A stretch of 64,000 bases of DNA from NCBI RefSeq assembly GCF_003610015.1, contig NZ_AP018933.1:682001-746000 (forward strand). The letters are read 5' to 3'. The translations under genes and the position numbers were made by a program. Under the pieces are notes generated by a model that saw only the letters and a list, made by a program, of their open reading frames with translations, was not told the origin of the DNA and ran no database searches. Positions 5,178-52,843 of this stretch are shown one piece after another. Each line of letters opens with the position of its first letter. Positions within the stretch are counted from its first letter, which is position 1. This stretch comes from Zymobacter palmae. GTDB taxonomy: Bacteria > Pseudomonadota > Gammaproteobacteria > Pseudomonadales > Halomonadaceae.

Positions 5178-6215
5178 TTACATGGGAAAACTGAACAGGT
5201 GATGTGGCGTTGCGAAGACTCGCTCGCCGCGCGTGAAGCGCTGCTGTTCCGCGATATGGTGGGGCAGTAAGGCGTGCCAAGGGCGTTCCAGCCACGGTGC
5301 GTGCAACTCGACGCGGACATGCGCGCCCAACGATACAACGTCATGGATATCGACGGGCAGGTACGTATGAGATGCATCGGGCTGGCGGTCGAGTCCTAGG
5401 TCGTAGGGACGAATCTGCACCGTAGTGCTCTGGGCGGGCAGGTAGGCCTCACCGCATGTCAGTAGGCCGTCTGCCAACTGGCCCTTGAACAGGTTGCTTT
5501 CTCCTAAAAAATTGAACACGAACGTGTTGCTGGGGGCCTGATAGAGGGCTGTGGGCGTGTCGATCTGCTCAATGCGGCCGTGGCTCATCACTGCAACGCG
5601 GTCCGACAGTTCGAGCGCTTCCTCTTGATCGTGGGTGACGAAGACACAGGTGAATTTGAGCTTGTCATGCAGTGCTCGCAGCCAACGGCGCATCTCGACG
5701 CGCACCTGAGTATCGAGCGCGCCGAACGGTTCATCCATCAACAGTACCTTGGGCTCAACGGCCAGCGCGCGAGCCAGTGCCACACGCTGCTGTTGACCAC
5801 CGGACAGCTGAGCGGGCAGGCGTTTGGCCAGAGGCGATAGCTGGATGGTGTCCAACAGGCCATTCACTCGCTCGGCAATCGCCTGTGACGAAAGGCGCTG
5901 AGCGCGAGGCTGCACGCGAAGCCCGAACGCAATGTTTTCGAAGACTGTCATATGGCGGAACAAGGCATAGTGCTGGAATACGAAGCCGATTTGACGATGG
6001 CGTACGTGTACCGCCGTCATGTCCCGGTCACCGAAAAGGATGCGGCCCGCGGTGGGGTGTTCCAGACCGGCAATGATACGCAGCAGCGTCGTCTTGCCGG
6101 AGCCTGACGGTCCGAGTAGCCCAACCAGCTCTCCTTGTCTTATCTCCAGAGAGGTCGGATGCAGGGCCGTGACGTCCCCGAAGCGGCGTGCTACCTGATC
6201 TACGATGATGCTCAT
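5178..6215 (-). CDS. cysA: Sulfate ABC transporter ATP-binding protein
   Basis: The ATPase subunit that powers sulfate import, 345 residues. Walker A GPSGSGKT (35-42), Q-loop VFQHYALF (79-86), signature LSGGQQQR (137-144), Walker [13 protein letters not shown] (157-168) and switch His195 (FVTHDQEEA) are all present. A C-terminal TOBE-like region follows from about 240. It is the last gene of the cysT-cysW-cysA operon, three bases after cysW, and converges on sbp. Confidence 0.96.
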
Positions 6216-6218
6216 CCG

Positions 6219-7046
6219 TTACTCTCCTTCGGTGTGCTGCTGGGCATAACGATCCAGCAGCGCCTTAATCAACAGGGTGAGGACCGCCAGCAGTGCCAGT
6301 ATCAAGGCGCTCGCAAAGGCGCCTACGATGTTGTAGTCCTGATAGAGCTGCTGGACCTGTAGCGGCAGTGTGCTGGTGTCACCGCGAATAGCCCCAGATA
6401 CGATGGATACAGCTCCGAACTCGCCGATGGCGCGTGCATTGGTCAGCACTACACCGTACAGCAGCGCTAGACGAATATTGGGCAGCGTGATACGGAAGAA
6501 CAGCGTCCAGCCGTTGGCCCCTAGCGTCACGGCCGCTTCCTCTTCCAGACGTCCTTGTACCTGCATGACGGGAATGACCTCACGCGCGACGAACGGGCAG
6601 GTCACGAACAGCGTGACGAGCACAATGCCCGGCCATGCAAACATCAGCTGTATGTCGTGGTCTGCAAGCCAACCGCCCAGCCAGCCATTGGTGCCATACA
6701 GCAGCAGGTACAGTAGCCCCGCGATGACGGGGGACACCGCAAAGGGAATGTCGATCAGCGTCTGCAGCAGGCGGCGCCCGGGAAATGAGAATCGCGTGAT
6801 TAGCCATGCTAGCGTGACCCCGAACACCAGATTGATCGGCACGGTGATTACTGCCACCAGCAAGGTAAGCAGCAGTGCTTTGACCGTGTAGAGGTCGGTG
6901 ATACTGGCCCAGAACGGTTGAACCCCTTGCGCGAAGGCCTGCGCAACGATGGCGATGAGTGGCACTAGTAGCAGCCAGAGCGCTACTAGGCTGGCGGCAC
7001 CGATCAGTACGCGCCGTACCGTGCGCTGATAGCCGATTCTGATCAT
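6219..7046 (-). CDS. cysW: Sulfate ABC transporter permease CysW
   Basis: A 275-residue inner-membrane permease, one half of the CysT/CysW translocation channel. About six membrane segments are seen, with the coupling motif EEAAVTLGANGWTLFFRITLP (residues near 168-188) and the typical tail segment ARAIGEFGAVSIVSG. The start codon overlaps the cysT stop (ATGA, 7043-7046), so translation is coupled. Confidence 0.96.
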   Translation of the reverse strand: MIRIGYQRTVRRVLIGAASLVALWLLLVPLIAIVAQAFAQGVQPFWASITDLYTVKALLLTLLVAVITVPINLVFGVTLAWLITRFSFPGRRLLQTLIDIPFAVSPVIAGLLYLLLYGTNGWLGGWLADHDIQLMFAWPGIVLVTLFVTCPFVAREVIPVMQVQGRLEEEAAVTLGANGWTLFFRITLPNIRLALLYGVVLTNARAIGEFGAVSIVSGAIRGDTSTLPLQVQQLYQDYNIVGAFASALILALLAVLTLLIKALLDRYAQQHTEGE

Positions 7047-7891
7047 GCCTCACCTCCATGCAGACGGCGGAAGAAGCGGGCCTGCCACGCGTTGATGAAC
7101 AGTAGAAGCAGCAGCGATGAGGCCAGCACCAGCGATGCCAGTGCCGCAGCGTTGGTGTAGCTGTATTCTTCAAGCTGCGTGACGATCGCCAGCGACATCA
7201 CCTCGGTCTTGTAAGGGGTATTGCCTGCGATGAAAATCACTGCGCCGTACTCGCCCAGTGAGCGGGCCAGGCTTAGCGCACCACCTGTCAGTAGGGCGGG
7301 CCATACCATCGGAAACAGTGCACGCCAGAACGTCTGACGTTCGGTTGCGCCCAGCGACACAGCCGCTTCTTCGAGTGTCGCTGGCAGTTCTTCCAAAATG
7401 GGCTGCACGCTGCGTACCACGAAAGGCAGGCTCGTGAATACCATGGCCATGATGATGCCCAACGGCGAGTAAGACACCGTAATGCCCACTTTGGCCAGCC
7501 ATGCTCCCAGTGCACCGTTTGGTGCGTACAGTGTGGCCAGCGTGATGCCGGCAACGGCAGTGGGCAGCGCAAACGGCAGATCAATCAGCGCATCAAGCAG
7601 AGTGCGGCCGGGAAAGCGATAGCGCACCAATACCCAGGCCAGCAATAACCCCGTCAGCACATTGATGACTGACGCTGCCAGTGCAGTAAGAACCGTCACC
7701 TTGTAACTCGCGATGTTGCGTGAATCGGTAATGACCCCCCAGTACTCCGCCCAAGACAGCTGCGACAGCTGCCCAATCAGGCTGGTCAGTGGCAGCAGCA
7801 GGATCAGCGCGGCGTAAAGCAGCGTCGTGCCCAGCGACAAGGTAAACCCAGGCAGCACGCGACGCGTCGATAGCAAGGTTGAATTGCTCAT
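7043..7891 (-). CDS. cysT: Sulfate ABC transporter permease CysT (CysU)
   Basis: A 282-residue permease with about six hydrophobic segments and the EAA coupling loop EEAAVSLGATERQTFWRALFP, followed by LARSLGEYGAVIFIAGN, characteristic of CysT. I chose the ATG at 7891 over the in-frame start at 7951: it has an AGGAG upstream and forms an ATGA overlap with the preceding small ORF. It is the first transporter gene of the operon. Confidence 0.95.
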   Translation of the reverse strand: MSNSTLLSTRRVLPGFTLSLGTTLLYAALILLLPLTSLIGQLSQLSWAEYWGVITDSRNIASYKVTVLTALAASVINVLTGLLLAWVLVRYRFPGRTLLDALIDLPFALPTAVAGITLATLYAPNGALGAWLAKVGITVSYSPLGIIMAMVFTSLPFVVRSVQPILEELPATLEEAAVSLGATERQTFWRALFPMVWPALLTGGALSLARSLGEYGAVIFIAGNTPYKTEVMSLAIVTQLEEYSYTNAAALASLVLASSLLLLLFINAWQARFFRRLHGGEA

Positions 7892-8109
7892 TGGGACGCA
7901 GTGCTCCTGCGGCGGTCGTAGGGTGCCGTTTCGCGAGCCTGTGCTTGCCATAGCGATGGACTGAAGGTCGTCAGGCCGCCAAGACCCTCGTCTGCCAGCA
8001 TGAAAATGCGCGGGATGCCGCTCGCTGCGTGCTGTACCGCACTTTCTTCAAGGCGAACAACGCGAGCGATCTTCTGGAATAACGCGCGCAGTACGGATGA
8101 AAGTGTCAT
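7888..8109 (-). CDS. Small protein coupled to cysT
   Basis: A 73-residue ORF directly upstream of cysT. Its stop overlaps the cysT start by ATGA (7888-7891), the same arrangement as cysT/cysW, and its ATG is preceded by AGGGGGG. That organisation argues it is translated as the operon's first gene. The sequence (start MTLSSVLRALFQKIARVVRL) is basic and amphipathic, without a signal peptide, and I do not recognise its family. Some pseudomonads carry a small sulfur-starvation protein (OscA) next to sulfate transport genes, but I cannot see a convincing match. Confidence 0.55.
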   Translation of the reverse strand: MTLSSVLRALFQKIARVVRLEESAVQHAASGIPRIFMLADEGLGGLTTFSPSLWQAQARETAPYDRRRSTASQ

Positions 8110-45969: not shown

Positions 45970-46045
45970 TCCTCGATAGCTCAGTTGGTAGAGCAAATGA
46001 CTGTTAATCATTGGGTCACAGGTTCGAGTCCTGTTCGAGGAGCCA
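45970..46045 (+). tRNA. tRNA-Asn (GTT)
   Basis: 76 bases including an encoded CCA. The acceptor stem TCCTCGA/TCGAGGA, D arm AGCTCAGTTGGTAGAGC, anticodon loop CTGTTAA with GTT and T arm ACAGG-TTCGAGT-CCTGT all pair. It is the first of two tandem copies. Confidence 0.98.
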
Positions 46046-46077: not shown

Positions 46078-46153
46078 TCCTCGATAGCTCAGTTGGTAGA
46101 GCAAATGACTGTTAATCATTGGGTCGCAGGTTCGAGTCCTGCTCGAGGAGCCA
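46078..46153 (+). tRNA. tRNA-Asn (GTT), integration target
   Basis: Same fold as the first copy, with the T arm GCAGG-TTCGAGT-CCTGC and CCA encoded. Its 3' half, from the anticodon loop on, is repeated at 52277, showing that a mobile element integrated here and restored the tRNA. Confidence 0.98.
46109..46139 (+). repeat. attL core (31 bp)
   Basis: CTGTTAATC...GAGTCC inside the second tRNA-Asn is identical to 52277-52307. Weaker identity continues past the tRNA end (GAGCCATCTGAA.CCC). Confidence 0.9.
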
Positions 46154-46249
46154 TCTGAATCCCCTTGTTTTCCCTTCCTTTTTGATACATCCCTGTATCG
46201 TATTTCTTCCCTGAAATTCTCAAACTACATAGATTTTTCCGTAATATTC

Positions 46250-46501
46250 CTACTCGGGTTCAGTCTCCGCTTTCGTAGTTTCTGGCGTTGATACCAGCGG
46301 AATGCTCAAATCGTAGATATCCATCATTGTACTGCTTCTATGCCCCAACGCTTCCTGTTTGTCATAGCGTGTGCTGGGCATGTCTGTAATTCCCTGACTT
46401 TTTAAGCCGTAGATGCCAAATCGTTGTGAGGAGTGAACCACTTCTTCATGCAGTAGCAGGGCAATGAAGTGGAGGTAAGCCTGTTCCATTACGATCCACA
46501 T
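46250..46501 (-). pseudogene. Tyrosine integrase, C-terminal fragment
   Basis: 83 residues readable from 46501 to the stop at 46250. YGLKSQGITD corresponds to the box-II region, and ALGHRSSTMMDIYDLSIPLV contains the GH motif and the nucleophilic tyrosine (MDIYD) of phage integrases. The N-terminal ~300 residues are missing; upstream sequence to 46900 has no matching frame. Its position beside attL with the C-terminus facing it is usual for int. It cannot be active as it stands. Confidence 0.72.
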
Positions 46502-46965
46502 GTCAGCAGGGTAAGCATTGGCCTATCCTCATGGCTCCTTCGGTGTAAGGCTGCCGCTTTCGATAGGTATATCGGGTGGCATCGTCTCATTGCTAATGCG
46601 CAAGGTAGATGTTGGATGCTGCTCGAATTAGCGGAATTGAAGTTGGATATTGCTATGCGGTCATCGTGGGGTGGAGATGCTCATGCGAAAAAGGCCTGCC
46701 GCGTGCTTCGTTATCTGCCTTTGGGGAATGAAGGTGCCTCATGTCGGTTGGACAGGTGGCGGCATTGCGTGCGCCCAGCTGAGTGCTGAGCTTGGTAGCG
46801 TGTGCACTCTAAATTCCCGTCGTGTTGGTGTCAAAGAACTTCTTCAGCCCCTTGTGTTAGAGACTTTTGATCATGCATATAGCGCATATATGCGTTATGC
46901 AGCTGTCTGTTACCCGCAGTGAGGCCCATGGTGTCAAAAACATATCCACGCGGAATGATGTTATG
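46502..46965. other. Non-coding island segment
   Basis: About 460 bp without a recognisable gene, presumably where the rest of the integrase and early phage genes were lost. Short frames on the plus strand (46469-46789, 46650-46922) have unconvincing composition. Confidence 0.4.
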
Positions 46966-47582: not shown

Positions 47583-47810
47583 ATGCAAACAACGATCTTC
47601 AAAAGTAATCGCAGTCAGGCGGTACGGCTGCCTAAAGCTGTGGCTCTTCCTGATGATGTCAAATACGTCGAAGTCATCGCAGTAGGCCATACGCGCATCA
47701 TCACGCCGGCCAACAAGGTCTGGGATGAGTGGTTCGACGGCGAAAGCATTGGGTCTGACTATATGGCAGATCGTGAGCAGCCATCAGATCAGCCGCGTGA
47801 GGTGTTTTGA
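47583..47810 (+). CDS. vapB: VapB-type antitoxin
   Basis: A 75-residue AbrB/SpoVT-fold antitoxin: MQTTIFKSNRSQAVRLPKA is the swapped-hairpin DNA-binding part and the acidic C-terminus (WDEWFDGESIGSDYMADRE) wraps the toxin. The ATG at 47583 has TGGAGG upstream. The stop overlaps the vapC start (TGATG). It normally represses its own operon. Confidence 0.92.
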   Translation: MQTTIFKSNRSQAVRLPKAVALPDDVKYVEVIAVGHTRIITPANKVWDEWFDGESIGSDYMADREQPSDQPREVF

Positions 47811-48217
47811 TGCTCAAATACATGCTGGATACCAACATCTGTATTTTTACGATCAAGAACAGACCTTCTCATATACGTGATCTGTTCAACCTCCATCATG
47901 GCAGAATGTGCATCAGTACAGTCACGCTCATGGAGCTTATCTACGGCGCAGAGAAAAGTGCTTGTCCTGAACGCAATCTCTCAGTGGTTGAAGGGTTCGC
48001 TGCCAGAGTGACGGTGTTGACGTATGACACACTGGCCGCCGAGCATACAGGGCAATTACGTGCTGAGCAGGCAAAGATAGGTCGCCCTATTGGGCCCTAT
48101 GATCAAATGGTTGCTGGACATGCGCGCAGCCTAGGTTTGATTGTGGTCACGAATAATCGGCGCGAGTTCGACCAAGTCCCAGGACTACGCGTGGAAGACT
48201 GGACACAATCAGTATGA
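47810..48217 (+). CDS. vapC: VapC-type PIN-domain toxin ribonuclease
   Basis: A 135-residue PIN RNase. Acidic residues Asp7 (MLDTNI), Glu42 (TLMELIYG) and Asp98 (GPYDQMVAGHA), with TNNRREF near 114-120, form the metal site. The ATG at 47810 overlaps the vapB stop. Chromosomal VapCs usually cut initiator tRNA or rRNA; here it may stabilise the island. Confidence 0.94.
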   Translation: MLKYMLDTNICIFTIKNRPSHIRDLFNLHHGRMCISTVTLMELIYGAEKSACPERNLSVVEGFAARVTVLTYDTLAAEHTGQLRAEQAKIGRPIGPYDQMVAGHARSLGLIVVTNNRREFDQVPGLRVEDWTQSV

Positions 48218-48488: not shown

Positions 48489-49462
48489 ATGCGTGCGGGG
48501 CTTGCGGCGGTCGAGCTTGTCGCACAGGCCGAGTTCATCGAACGCGTGACCAAGCCTACAACGTCGAGCACATCGGTATCGACGTCACTGGCATGGGGGG
48601 ACTCCGTGGCCCAGCTGGTCGAGATGTTCTTTCCCAACGTCACTCGTTACCGCTATACGCCGGATCTCAAGTCGGCGATGGTACGCCAGACCCAGCAGAT
48701 TATCCGCAAACAGCGCCAGCAGTTCACTGCGCTGGCACTGGACTTTTTGACCTTCGGCAACGCTACCTGCACCCGATCTATAGCCGCCTTGGCAACCTGA
48801 TGGCCCTTGATGTGCCGCGCGCCAAGTACGTGCGCCGTGGCCTTGATCTTGACACCTACTATTGGGTGCCGCTGTACGGACAAGAAGAAGCCTTTACCAC
48901 CCCGCCGTGGCACCTGATGCAACCAGGCATTGATCAAGAGGTCTACGGCGAGCCGGACTATATCGGCGCGCTGGACTCAATCCAACTCAACAAGGAAGCG
49001 ACCACGTTCCGCCTGCGCTACTACCGCAACGGCAGCCATGCGGGGTTCATTCTGTACACCACCGGCGACAAGATTGATCCCACTGATCAGGACAACATGC
49101 GCAAGGCATTGAAGGACTCGAAAGGCCCCGGCAACTTCCGCAACTTCTACATGCACATCACCGATGGCAACAAAGACTCGGTGAACCTAATCCCGATCAG
49201 TGAGATTGCGGCAAAGGATGATTTTCAAGCGATCAAAGGGCAGACCCGCGACGACCAGCTGGCCGCACATCGCGTACCGCCGCAGCTGATGGGGATCATC
49301 CCCAACAATACCGGCGGCTTTGGGGACATTGAGAAAGCGGCGGCCGTGTTCGTGGCCAACGAACTGGAACCGCTGCAGGAAACGCTATCGGAGTTCAACG
49401 ATATGATTGGGCAAGAGGTGGTCCGCTTCGCCCCGTTCAGCCTTAGCCAGCCCCGTTCATAG
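48489..49462 (+). pseudogene. Fused remnant of P2-type terminase (gpP) and portal (gpQ)
   Basis: The first part resembles the C-terminal nuclease region of P2 gpP, split by frame changes: VAQAEFIERVT (to ~48555), then YNVEHIGIDVTGMG in another frame, then back after a six-G run to VAQLVEMFFPNVTRYRYTPDLK. At about 48715 it jumps into gpQ (FTALALDFLTFGNA), shifts frame again near 48770, and continues to the true portal end: AKYVRRGLDLDTYYWVP, INQEVYG-like (IDQEVYGEPDYIGALD), GDIEKAAAVFVANELEPLQ, stop at 49462. P then Q in the same direction is the P2 gene order, so an internal deletion joined them. Not functional. Confidence 0.85.
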
Positions 49463-49484
49463 TCCCTGCGTTATACCGATATCT

Positions 49485-49510
49485 AAGCCGCCCGCGAGGC
49501 GGCTTTTTTT
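49485..49510 (+). terminator. Terminator after the portal remnant
   Basis: AAGCCGCC-CGCGA-GGCGGCTT followed by a long T-run, 22 bases after the portal stop. Confidence 0.88.
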
Positions 49511-49808
49511 CGTCTGTTCGACAGCGAGACCCTCCCCCCCACCACCTCGGCGAGACCTCAACGCCACACGCCACCACGCGCAGTTGCCCCCCGCGCCTGC
49601 GGTTTCTAAATAGGTCGATTTTTATGCAGGGGGGAAGGATACGAAACAGCCCGCATGATGCGGGCTGTAGCGAAATTTTGAGGGCAAAAAAATTATGCGG
49701 ATTTATGCGTTTTGAAAAAAACTTATCATTTACTATCCTTGACTAGTCTAGTGTGAAAAATTTTGTTCTAGATAGTTTGGTGCTATCAATTATTATGGGA
49801 GTAGTGAG
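49511..49808. other. Junction region between portal remnant and SIR2 gene
   Basis: Composition drops sharply here. The left part is C-rich (CCTCCCCCCCCACCACCTC at 49529-49548), where P2-type phages would carry their cos site just past Q. A hairpin ACAGCCCGC-ATGAT-GCGGGCTGT lies at about 49646-49668. The right part is AT-rich with TTGACT at 49739-49744 as a possible -35 for the next gene. No cos core could be identified with certainty. Confidence 0.4.
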
Positions 49809-52184
49809 ATGAAAATAATGGATGTTAACTCTGCTGAGTTTAAAGAAATGATTAAACTATGTATAAATACCACAGGGTTAATTCCTGTTATCGGCGCCGG
49901 ATTTACCAAAGGTGAGAAGGCTCTAGGAGGAACAGTACCTGATGGCAATGGACTAATAGATTTGATGATAGGTAGATTGAAAAAAGAAGGTAATCTAGAA
50001 GAAAGTAAGATATCTCGACTTTGTGAAAAAAAAGATTTTAAGTCAGTTTCAAGGTACTATTTATCTCAACGTTATGTTTCTAGGGAATCTTTTGTTGAAG
50101 ATATAAAAAATAATTTCACAAAAGTTGAGCTTAGTTATTTGAAAAAAAGATTTATCGAAAATAAATGGAGATATGTATATACTTTAAATATTGATGATGC
50201 TATCGAAAGGCAAAACAAAAATCTAACCAAAATACTGCCATATAAGAAAATAGAAAAACGAGCAAATGATATAAACCTTGTTTATAAGGTGCATGGGTGT
50301 GCGATGGAAGAATGTACTTATATTCAAGAAAGTACACTTGTTTTTACAGATCTTCAATATGTGAGAAGCTTGATAAAAAATGAGCATATATTGCAAGCGC
50401 TAAGATCTGATATGTTAGAAAGTAACATGCTATACATCGGGTGTAGTCTAAGCAGAGAAATTGACTTGATGTATTCTGTTTCAGGTGAAAAAGAAGATGA
50501 TTTTATTGAGTCTAAAAAAATCTTTATAACTCGAAATTGCCCAGATGAAATGATGATGGATGAAATAGAAGATTATGGCATAAATGTAGTGGGGCTTCTT
50601 GAAAATTATGATGATATATATCGAGTAGTAAATGAAGCATTTCTATTCGGAGCTGGAGATGAAACCTCGATATTCGATAACTTTGACAGTAAAAATATAA
50701 AAAAAATAAGCAGTGAAAAAAACTCTAATATATCTTTTATGTTACAAGGAGGCGCTGTTTTTAAAGAAGGAGACAATAGCAATAAAAATTTTAGTATTCC
50801 TTGTTATAGCATCGATAGAAGCCTTACTCCCGACGTGATAAAGTCAATCTTGTCTACACCATTTACCATAATAAAAGGTAGGCGTTTTTCAGGCAAGTCC
50901 CTATTTCTTAAAAATTTATCTCAAAAAATAAAAGATAAAAAAGTTTATTTTGTTCCGTCTTCTTTTTCTCTTAATGTAAATGAAATAGAGAAAATATGCA
51001 GCGTGAAAGACTCCATATTTTTAATAGATAGTAATGTTATTACATATCTGGAAGCATCAAAAATAAGAGCTTTTAAAAAACAAATAATTGATAGTGGCGT
51101 TAAGTTTTTAATAGCATGCAATCCTACGGAAATAGATGTGGCAAATACTTTTAGCAGCCTAGAAATAGAAACAGGTTTTTTCGAGTTAAAAAATAGGTTC
51201 GATCTTGATGAGTTACAGAATTTTAATGAGAAAGTATCAGAATTGGGAATAATCGAGTGGAAAAAGGATTGTAATTTTTTAGATAATTCTTATGCAACTG
51301 CAAGAAATTATCCTCAGATGAAACAGGAAATATTTGATTATCCAAAAATAAATAAAAAAGAATTTAAATTGTTAATACTTCTTGCTCTTTTGGATAAAGT
51401 GTATATTTCTCTTGGACGCGAGATAGGTTTCGGAAATAATGAAGCTAATGATTTTAGTAAAAAATATAGCCCCATAGTGGAAATTATAGAAACGACAAAA
51501 GAAGAAGAAAACCACAAATCTAAATTTAAACTGGTATCAAATTCCAAGACTTGGCTATTTAGTATAATTAAAGACTATATGACGGATAGTCTGAAAGATA
51601 ATGAATTGTCAGAAGTTATGATCGAAATGATCTCTCATTTTTATAAAAATAAACAACTTGAAGAAGTTGGAAAGAAACTCATTATGTTTGATACTGTCAA
51701 CCAGTTTTTTTCAAGAGAAAGAGGTGCCGGAAGGCTTTTAATAAAACTTTACGAAGATTTGCAGCCAATTTTGAGTCATGATCCTGATTACTGGCTACAA
51801 AGAGCCAAAGCAATGGGCAAAATAGTAAAAGATCCCCGTCATATATTTGACGCCATAGATTATGCAAAAAAAGCATATAACGATGGGAAAAGGAGTAAGA
51901 CATTAACAAATGCAGAGTTTACCATTGCAAACTTATATGGATTGCTTTGTAATCAAGATGGATATAAAGATGAAAATATTATTAGCAGTGCAATAGGTTG
52001 GTATTATTCTGCGATAAAAAACCATAATTATAATAAAAGTTATTTGGAATCTATGCTGGAAATTACAAAAGATAAAAAAGGCAATCTATACAATCTGTGT
52101 TCAAAAATAATGTCTAACAATATAAAATTAGACTCTGAAGCAAGAGAGAGTTACAATGAAATAATGCGTTTTATACGGCAATAG
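49809..52184 (+). CDS. SIR2-domain / P-loop protein, putative anti-phage defence
   Basis: 791 residues, strongly AT-rich and AT-codon-biased compared with all neighbours, a sign of recent transfer. Residues 1-285 form a SIR2-like domain: GLIPVIGAGFTKG (23-35, NAD-binding GAG at 29-31), YTLNIDD (124-130), VHG (His162) and LYIGCSLS (208-215). About 350-410 carries a P-loop-like GRRFSGKS (357-364) and a Walker-B-like SIFLIDSN (402-409). The rest is helical with TPR-like stretches (DPDYWLQRAKAMGKI, HIFDAIDYAKKAYNDG). This order resembles SIR2-STAND/Avs and DSR proteins, which destroy NAD when a phage is sensed. The ATG has GGGAGTAGTGAG upstream. It stands alone beside the portal remnant. Confidence 0.85.
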   Translation: MKIMDVNSAEFKEMIKLCINTTGLIPVIGAGFTKGEKALGGTVPDGNGLIDLMIGRLKKEGNLEESKISRLCEKKDFKSVSRYYLSQRYVSRESFVEDIKNNFTKVELSYLKKRFIENKWRYVYTLNIDDAIERQNKNLTKILPYKKIEKRANDINLVYKVHGCAMEECTYIQESTLVFTDLQYVRSLIKNEHILQALRSDMLESNMLYIGCSLSREIDLMYSVSGEKEDDFIESKKIFITRNCPDEMMMDEIEDYGINVVGLLENYDDIYRVVNEAFLFGAGDETSIFDNFDSKNIKKISSEKNSNISFMLQGGAVFKEGDNSNKNFSIPCYSIDRSLTPDVIKSILSTPFTIIKGRRFSGKSLFLKNLSQKIKDKKVYFVPSSFSLNVNEIEKICSVKDSIFLIDSNVITYLEASKIRAFKKQIIDSGVKFLIACNPTEIDVANTFSSLEIETGFFELKNRFDLDELQNFNEKVSELGIIEWKKDCNFLDNSYATARNYPQMKQEIFDYPKINKKEFKLLILLALLDKVYISLGREIGFGNNEANDFSKKYSPIVEIIETTKEEENHKSKFKLVSNSKTWLFSIIKDYMTDSLKDNELSEVMIEMISHFYKNKQLEEVGKKLIMFDTVNQFFSRERGAGRLLIKLYEDLQPILSHDPDYWLQRAKAMGKIVKDPRHIFDAIDYAKKAYNDGKRSKTLTNAEFTIANLYGLLCNQDGYKDENIISSAIGWYYSAIKNHNYNKSYLESMLEITKDKKGNLYNLCSKIMSNNIKLDSEARESYNEIMRFIRQ

Positions 52185-52229: not shown

Positions 52230-52276
52230 TTTTGCTAAATACAAGCAATGCTGTTATATGTTGAGTTCTAGTGTGG

Positions 52277-52307
52277 CTGTTAATCATTGGGTCGCAGGTT
52301 CGAGTCC
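52277..52307 (+). repeat. attR core (31 bp), tRNA-Asn 3' remnant
   Basis: Identical to 46109-46139, from the anticodon loop to the T arm. The following bases (AGTCAGGGGAGCCATCTGAA) diverge from a real acceptor stem, so it is not a functional tRNA. It marks the right boundary of the island. Confidence 0.88.
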
Positions 52308-52843
52308 AGTCAGGGGAGCCATCTGAACCCCTTTGTTTTTCCTGCCGTTTAATATTTTACAGCGCCATCTTTCCCCTCAGTCCTTTGCGCCTTCACATAA
52401 ATCCCTTCGTGCTGCTTACATTCTGCATTTCTCTCATCCACGAACCTCCATACTCCTCATGCATCCGTCCCAGTCGTTGCTGATCATTGAGGCCGAATGT
52501 CTGCAGAACATGAATCATCCCCTCTTGCTTGTATAGCCGCTAACAATAGCCGCAGTGTTACAGGCCGTAGGCTCTCTGGCTTTTTGCAGTGAGTCTTCAA
52601 GCCGTATATGATCGGGCGCGATCGCCAAGAGTCTGATCTATAAGGATCTGTAGGCTTCTGGAGTGTTTCTCTTTATGTCCATATGCGGGCGGCATTGCGC
52701 GTGCCGATATTATGTGGACATGTGTACGTCCTGTCCTGTGGATCACGAACAATCAGGCCGTGAAGGCTGCGTCATCTTTATTTAGCGGGTCCGCCACTGC
52801 TGTTAGGCGTGGGTCCGTTACCATTCACGAATAGGGGATATTC
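52308..52843. other. Intergenic right of the island
   Basis: About 540 bp without a convincing gene, beyond the att remnant. Two overlapping short frames (52271-52483, 52333-52536) have no ribosome binding site or recognisable sequence. Confidence 0.4.

Follow-up and report, generated by a model that had tools for sequence, protein, structure and literature searches.

The gene at positions 49809 to 52184 (plus strand) of the window, by which we mean the whole 64,000-nucleotide stretch of the Zymobacter palmae genome analysed here (contig NZ_AP018933.1, positions 682,001 to 746,000), very probably encodes an antiphage NLR-like protein, a single-gene system of the Avs5 (AVAST type 5) family, and sits as cargo in the portal-side hotspot of a P2-type prophage of which decay has left about 6 kb, bounded by a tRNA-Asn gene and an imperfect copy of the tRNA 3' part. 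Full-length membership of the family is demonstrated by profile, sequence and predicted fold, the catalytic and nucleotide-binding residues are retained, and the gene is sited behind a P2-type portal remnant. Judged from its sequence and fold model, the product is a full-length but sequence-divergent Avs5 (SIR2-STAND) protein of an already known family. The open reading frame starts with ATG and runs for 791 codons with zero internal stops, at 30.3% GC against 54.2% in its flanks, in agreement with an earlier, sequence-only reading of this DNA that had described an AT-rich, standalone gene of 791 residues, and a search of the 3.03-Mb genome found it in one copy. The AT-richness is not peculiar to the window copy, because the extracted open reading frame had a lower GC content than its flanks at all 47 related loci that we collected (seven of which were later set aside).

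Avs5 is the sole PADLOC family listed for the protein at E ≤ 1 (PDLC02170, residues 7-789 against profile positions 7-764 of 771, E 3.2e-71), and the NCBIfam Avs5 model (NF041814) matches residues 4-787 (E 6.1e-97, 325.3 bits). Both matches are near full length, and they bear out the sequence-only reading, which had suggested an Avs5-type SIR2-STAND gene and proposed the PADLOC run. The NCBIfam score is far below the NCBI-curated cut-off for equivalog naming, 1000 bits, and the protein therefore lies outside that narrow equivalog group. Pfam finds SIR2_2 (E 1.5e-10) and, below threshold, nSTAND_NTPase5 (22.4 against a gathering score of 34), an NTPase subtype label that differs from the nSTAND3 named for PaAvs5 in the available text of PMC12931631. 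Among solved structures the top sequence match is PDB 9nah/9nc9 (residues 11-788, E 4.1e-43), the 9nc9 entry being titled 'Helical assembly of AVAST5 filament'. A second structure, 9jap, titled EfAvs5(SIR2-STAND), is reached by a profile of our 24-row alignment at E 1.8e-17 and is absent at E ≤ 1 from the single-sequence search.

The AlphaFold2 model of the protein (mean pLDDT 83.5, pTM 0.55) leads to the same structures. Foldseek ranks six 9nc9 chains first (best E 2.1e-36) and 9jap seventh (E 1.8e-22), followed by human SAMD9 and DSR2. In VIA-align, 749 residues of 9nc9 align with Z 29.7 and 687 residues of 9jap with Z 21.6. In these whole-length Avs5 matches the rmsd is large, at 16-26 Å, since the domains agree and their mutual placement does not, and the placement of domains in the model is accordingly unreliable. 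The SIR2 fold that had been expected from sequence is present in the model (Z 22.3 to ThsA 8btp). Approximate domain limits taken from the model place a SIR2 NADase at residues 1-285, a linker at 286-335, a P-loop STAND NTPase at 336-500, a region of helices and strands at 500-580 and a helical-repeat region, the predicted sensor, at 580-791. The model has helices from about residue 580 to 790, which upholds the helical part of the earlier description of a TPR-like helical tail; for the TPR-like part, Pfam returned neither TPR nor any other named repeat family in the C-terminus at E ≤ 1, and the profile gave one weak match, between columns 718-790 and the designed TPR protein 7obi (E 5e-4), with no single stretch passing alone. 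A C-terminal helical-repeat region is thus present in the model, and its role as sensor is predicted.

To place the individual motifs we compared the protein with relatives from 47 loci, 44 from a scan of genome contigs, which spans several phyla and includes Rheinheimera nanhaiensis (48% identity) and Chlorobaculum (39%), and three from viral contigs. Five loci (L038, L041, L043, L051 and L054) had come out of the extraction short or disrupted and were dropped, as were L052 and L053, which matched only residues 6-218 or so, and 40 relatives were kept; L052 and L053 are open reading frames of 815 residues whose match to the query is limited to the SIR2 part. Every motif numbered in the sequence-only reading proved to be correctly positioned. 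The GAG of the SIR2 NAD-binding loop (residues 29-31, positions 49893..49901, plus strand as for all motifs here) keeps both glycines, G29 and G31, in 38 of 40 relatives. TLNIDD (125-130, 50181..50198) supplies the catalytic Asn127 and Asp129, His162-Gly163 (50292..50297) is the catalytic HG of SIR2, and GCSLSREID (211-219, 50439..50465), which begins with the earlier GCS 211-213, contains Glu217 and Asp219. Ten SIR2 columns (N127, D129, E133, K160, H162, G163, G211, L214, E217 and D219) are invariant in all 40 full-length relatives, a count that the search itself partly builds in, as the relatives had been found with patterns on NxDDxIE, GCSLxxExD or, for three loci, KxHG, which contained those residues. 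Residue 164, a cysteine in the window protein, is D in 34 relatives, C in four and T in two.

The Walker motifs were independent of these search patterns. Walker A, GRRFSGKS (357-364, 50877..50900), has G357, S361 and G362 in 40/40 relatives, K363 in 37 (R in the other three) and R359 in 33, and the Walker B strand SIFLIDSN (402-409, 51012..51035) has its one acid, Asp407, in all 40; the solved protein 9nah carries the identical GRRFSGKS and an F-D-S-N Walker B. Arg337 is likewise present in 40/40 relatives; the arginine finger of PaAvs5-1 is Arg438. As a single-acid Walker B is also described for PaAvs5-1 in the portion of PMC12931631 at hand, the motifs tested do not point to an incomplete NTPase. 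The earlier suggestion that the P-loop part lacks expected STAND motifs, and so may mark a distinct subtype, is not supported, as between 33 and 40 of the 40 relatives retain the residues of these motifs, 9nah has both motifs and, by that published description, PaAvs5-1 has the Walker B.

Compared with the characterised proteins, the window protein is closest to the Avs5 of the AVAST5 filament (9nah/9nc9; 769 residues), with which it shares its full length, domain order, Walker A, single-acid Walker B and SIR2 catalytic set. It differs in having only 21-22% identity in the fold alignments and in belonging to another clade of the tree, in which the solved protein is placed through the viral-contig relative L010. 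EfAvs5, which has been tested, has the same fold and domain order but is the more distant of these two from the window protein (16-17% identity). By its published description (PMC12931631, consulted in part) PaAvs5-1, which senses JADA of jumbo phages, is similar in its SIR2-STAND-repeat architecture, in the location of Walker A at 357-364 and in its single-acid Walker B, whereas it has NG and GPAGSGKT where the window protein has HG and GRRFSGKS.

The gene begins 346 bp past the stop of a P2-type portal (gpQ) remnant (48593..49462, plus strand; phrog_68, E 2.9e-92), which in the matched frame covers profile positions 109-341 of 344 only. The best phage match of this remnant is a Halomonas phage portal, 61% identical over 79% of the query; one of its matches carries the annotation portal vertex protein Q, and Peduovirus is the name on 18 of 333 records. 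Some 6 kb in all separate two candidate attachment sites. Of two tRNA-Asn genes, with ends at 46045 and 46153, the second contributes its 3' part, together with the following 29 nt, to an attL-like copy (46106..46182, plus strand). This recurs as an attR-like copy (52274..52350, plus strand) with 66 of 77 nt identical; over the 29 nt that follow the tRNA the two agree at 24, and no other place in the window (plus strand, ungapped) exceeds 18 of 29. Between the repeats lie a phage integrase C-terminal remnant beside the tRNA (46253..46522, minus strand), a vapBC toxin-antitoxin pair (47583..48217, plus strand; NCBIfam VapB 2.7e-30, VapC 1.2e-70), the portal remnant and the Avs5 gene; this VapC belongs to the tRNA-fMet endonuclease subfamily. 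The integrase remnant was recognised by tblastn, with 10 records in all, among them Pseudomonas phage Dobby (51%) and Stenotrophomonas phage Smp131 (35%), the latter of which we take to be P2-type. It also matches phrog_14425, of unknown function, and a Pfam search of it gave no match. As read from the sequence, the element is a P2-type prophage of which decay would have left about 6 kb, flanked on one side by tRNA-Asn and on the other by a 77-nt imperfect repeat of the tRNA 3' part. The portal and integrase remnants thereby substantiate the P2-type prophage remnant in which the sequence-only reading had set the gene.

The portal side of such phages is a recognised site for cargo. The accessible part of PMC9122126 describes the gpQ-gpA region of P2-like phages as a defence hotspot and reports SIR2 and NLR-like cargo in it. 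In the window, too, the cargo adjoins portal gene Q, on the side where this hotspot lies, but the phage is identified by portal and integrase remnants alone. The same genome has a second, fuller P2-type portal (C1:2863243-2864220, minus strand, within C1:2854000-2867000). A post-portal stretch with a terminator-like hairpin (49463..49512, plus strand) is common to the two, which diverge just after it when compared by eye; behind the second portal, after the shared hairpin, lies an open reading frame of 149 residues at 49% GC on the opposite strand.

The state of the element raises the question of whether the gene it carries still functions. Its portal and integrase are truncated and only about 6 kb of it persists, and the Avs5 gene might by the same token be a decaying passenger, a view that concerns function and is compatible with Avs5 identity. 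We consider this unlikely, as 791 codons are free of stops, the protein aligns to its relatives over its full length and the catalytic columns are kept.

A second alternative bears on identity: the protein might belong to a separate SIR2-STAND subtype and not to Avs5, its P-loop domain being partial and unable to act as a STAND switch. Twenty-three of the 40 relatives, hand-picked for spread, were aligned with the window protein in 24 rows. The window protein groups with L008, a relative from an IMG/VR viral contig (support 100/98), then with Rheinheimera L011 (100/100) and then with Chlorobaculum L012 (100/97), apart from a six-row clade (100/100) that contains L010 and also L040. With 1292 bits to 9nah over residues 1-768, the L010 protein is closely related to the solved AVAST5 protein. 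This well-supported clade of its own, separate from that of the solved protein's close relative, and the score below the NCBIfam equivalog cut-off are what a distinct subtype has in its favour. Against it, the same Walker motifs run through the 40 relatives, the L010/L040 clade included, and occur in 9nah, both the PADLOC and the NCBIfam Avs5 models match all 24 members of the alignment, the window protein among them, and the solved AVAST5 protein is nearer to the window protein than is EfAvs5, a tested family member. We therefore reject this alternative, which the Walker motifs common to the relatives largely refute and which we regard as very improbable.

The SIR2 domain speaks for a protein of DSR1/DSR2 or Thoeris ThsA type, aligning alone to ThsA, KomC and DSR2 chains (Z 18-23, about 250 residues, rmsd about 3-4 Å), along with full-length DSR2 chains that align over 336-369 residues but at 14-16 Å rmsd and ThsA PADLOC models that match 11 of the 24 alignment members, and this we dismiss as having next to no chance of being right, since no DSR or ThsA PADLOC model matches the window protein at E ≤ 1 and its P-loop domain and full-length matches point to Avs5. 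DSR1 and DSR2 are not known to have a P-loop NTPase, and membership of that group was rejected on the absence of a DSR model, the presence of the P-loop and a close DSR2 fold match over SIR2 only. Thoeris ThsA consists of a SIR2 domain followed by a STALD/SLOG domain, and membership there was rejected as neither Pfam nor PADLOC finds such a domain at E ≤ 1 and a P-loop domain is present instead.

With the protein assigned to Avs5, its action is most likely that of the tested family members, namely sensing of a phage protein, STAND-driven assembly and NAD hydrolysis by SIR2. By analogy the helical C-terminus would keep the protein inactive and would sense a protein that the phage makes during infection. 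STAND domains with bound nucleotide would drive assembly, into filaments in the solved Avs5, and the packed SIR2 domains would hydrolyse NAD+ to ADP-ribose and nicotinamide, so that NAD falls and infection aborts. In the window copy the anatomy and the kept residues are observed; we infer sensing, assembly and NAD loss from the tested Avs5 proteins. Filament activation of Avs5 is described in the text seen of PMC12700824. According to the sections of PMC12931631 available to us, PaAvs5 needs SIR2 residues N110, D112 and E202, Walker A residues G362 and K363 and the C-terminal helices, with a threefold drop in NAD and a rise in ADPR. That paper uses 335 sequences, and published Avs5 falls into four clades. 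Tested Avs5 proteins differ in phage range, all three PaAvs5 proteins tested giving strong protection from jumbo phage Pa36.

The relatives on viral contigs indicate how such genes travel. An alignment-based scan found three, L008 (53% identity, residues 1-789), L009 (29%) and L010 (27%), where a single-sequence scan of the viral contigs found no relatives and a direct search of phage records no match. The neighbours of L008 and L009 include Psu-like and integrase genes, to which L008 adds genes for an excisionase and a transcriptional regulator, and we presume both to be P4-like satellites; L008, 52-53% identical to the window protein and its sister in the tree, would thus reside in a P4-like satellite and not in a P2-type phage. 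The L010 gene sits between tail fibre and tail/tape-measure genes. A relative in Halomonas organivorans, at 25% identity, groups with the satellite-borne L009, apart from the window protein. Plasmid records gave three matches at 26-28% (two in Enterococcus, one in Vibrio). The Vibrio anguillarum plasmid p292 has an Avs5-like open reading frame (5995-8019) among IS elements, which in the listed frame lacks about the first 120 query residues.

At E ≤ 1e-10 the samples of 369 genomes from the class and 398 from the phylum yielded a match in the own genome alone, and 14 control genomes yielded none. Both samples are thin even draws in which the own genome is included, and with the controls at 0/14 the numbers give no firm frequency. 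A protein query of 97 genomes (the own genome, 60 from its family and 36 from its order) found two others, with partial, SIR2-level matches only (177 and 145 query residues), and just one of the 60 other family genomes gave even a partial match; the genomes drawn for it included no other member of the genus. None of the papers listed on AVAST in Halomonas appears to concern the window gene. Tentatively, and with the odds somewhat against it, the window protein, L008, Rheinheimera L011 and Chlorobaculum L012 may be a clade of Avs5 with no member tested so far, tuned to a phage trigger other than those of known Avs5 proteins and spread by P2/P4-type elements.

The window gene leaves the known Avs5 mechanism unchanged, adding a member to a known family and no new kind of system. 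It locates Avs5-type genes behind a P2-type portal remnant as well as in presumed P4-like satellites, and it adds a divergent Avs5 clade, whose window member has 52-53% identity to L008 and 21-22% to the solved protein, which bears on how Avs5 sensors diversify.
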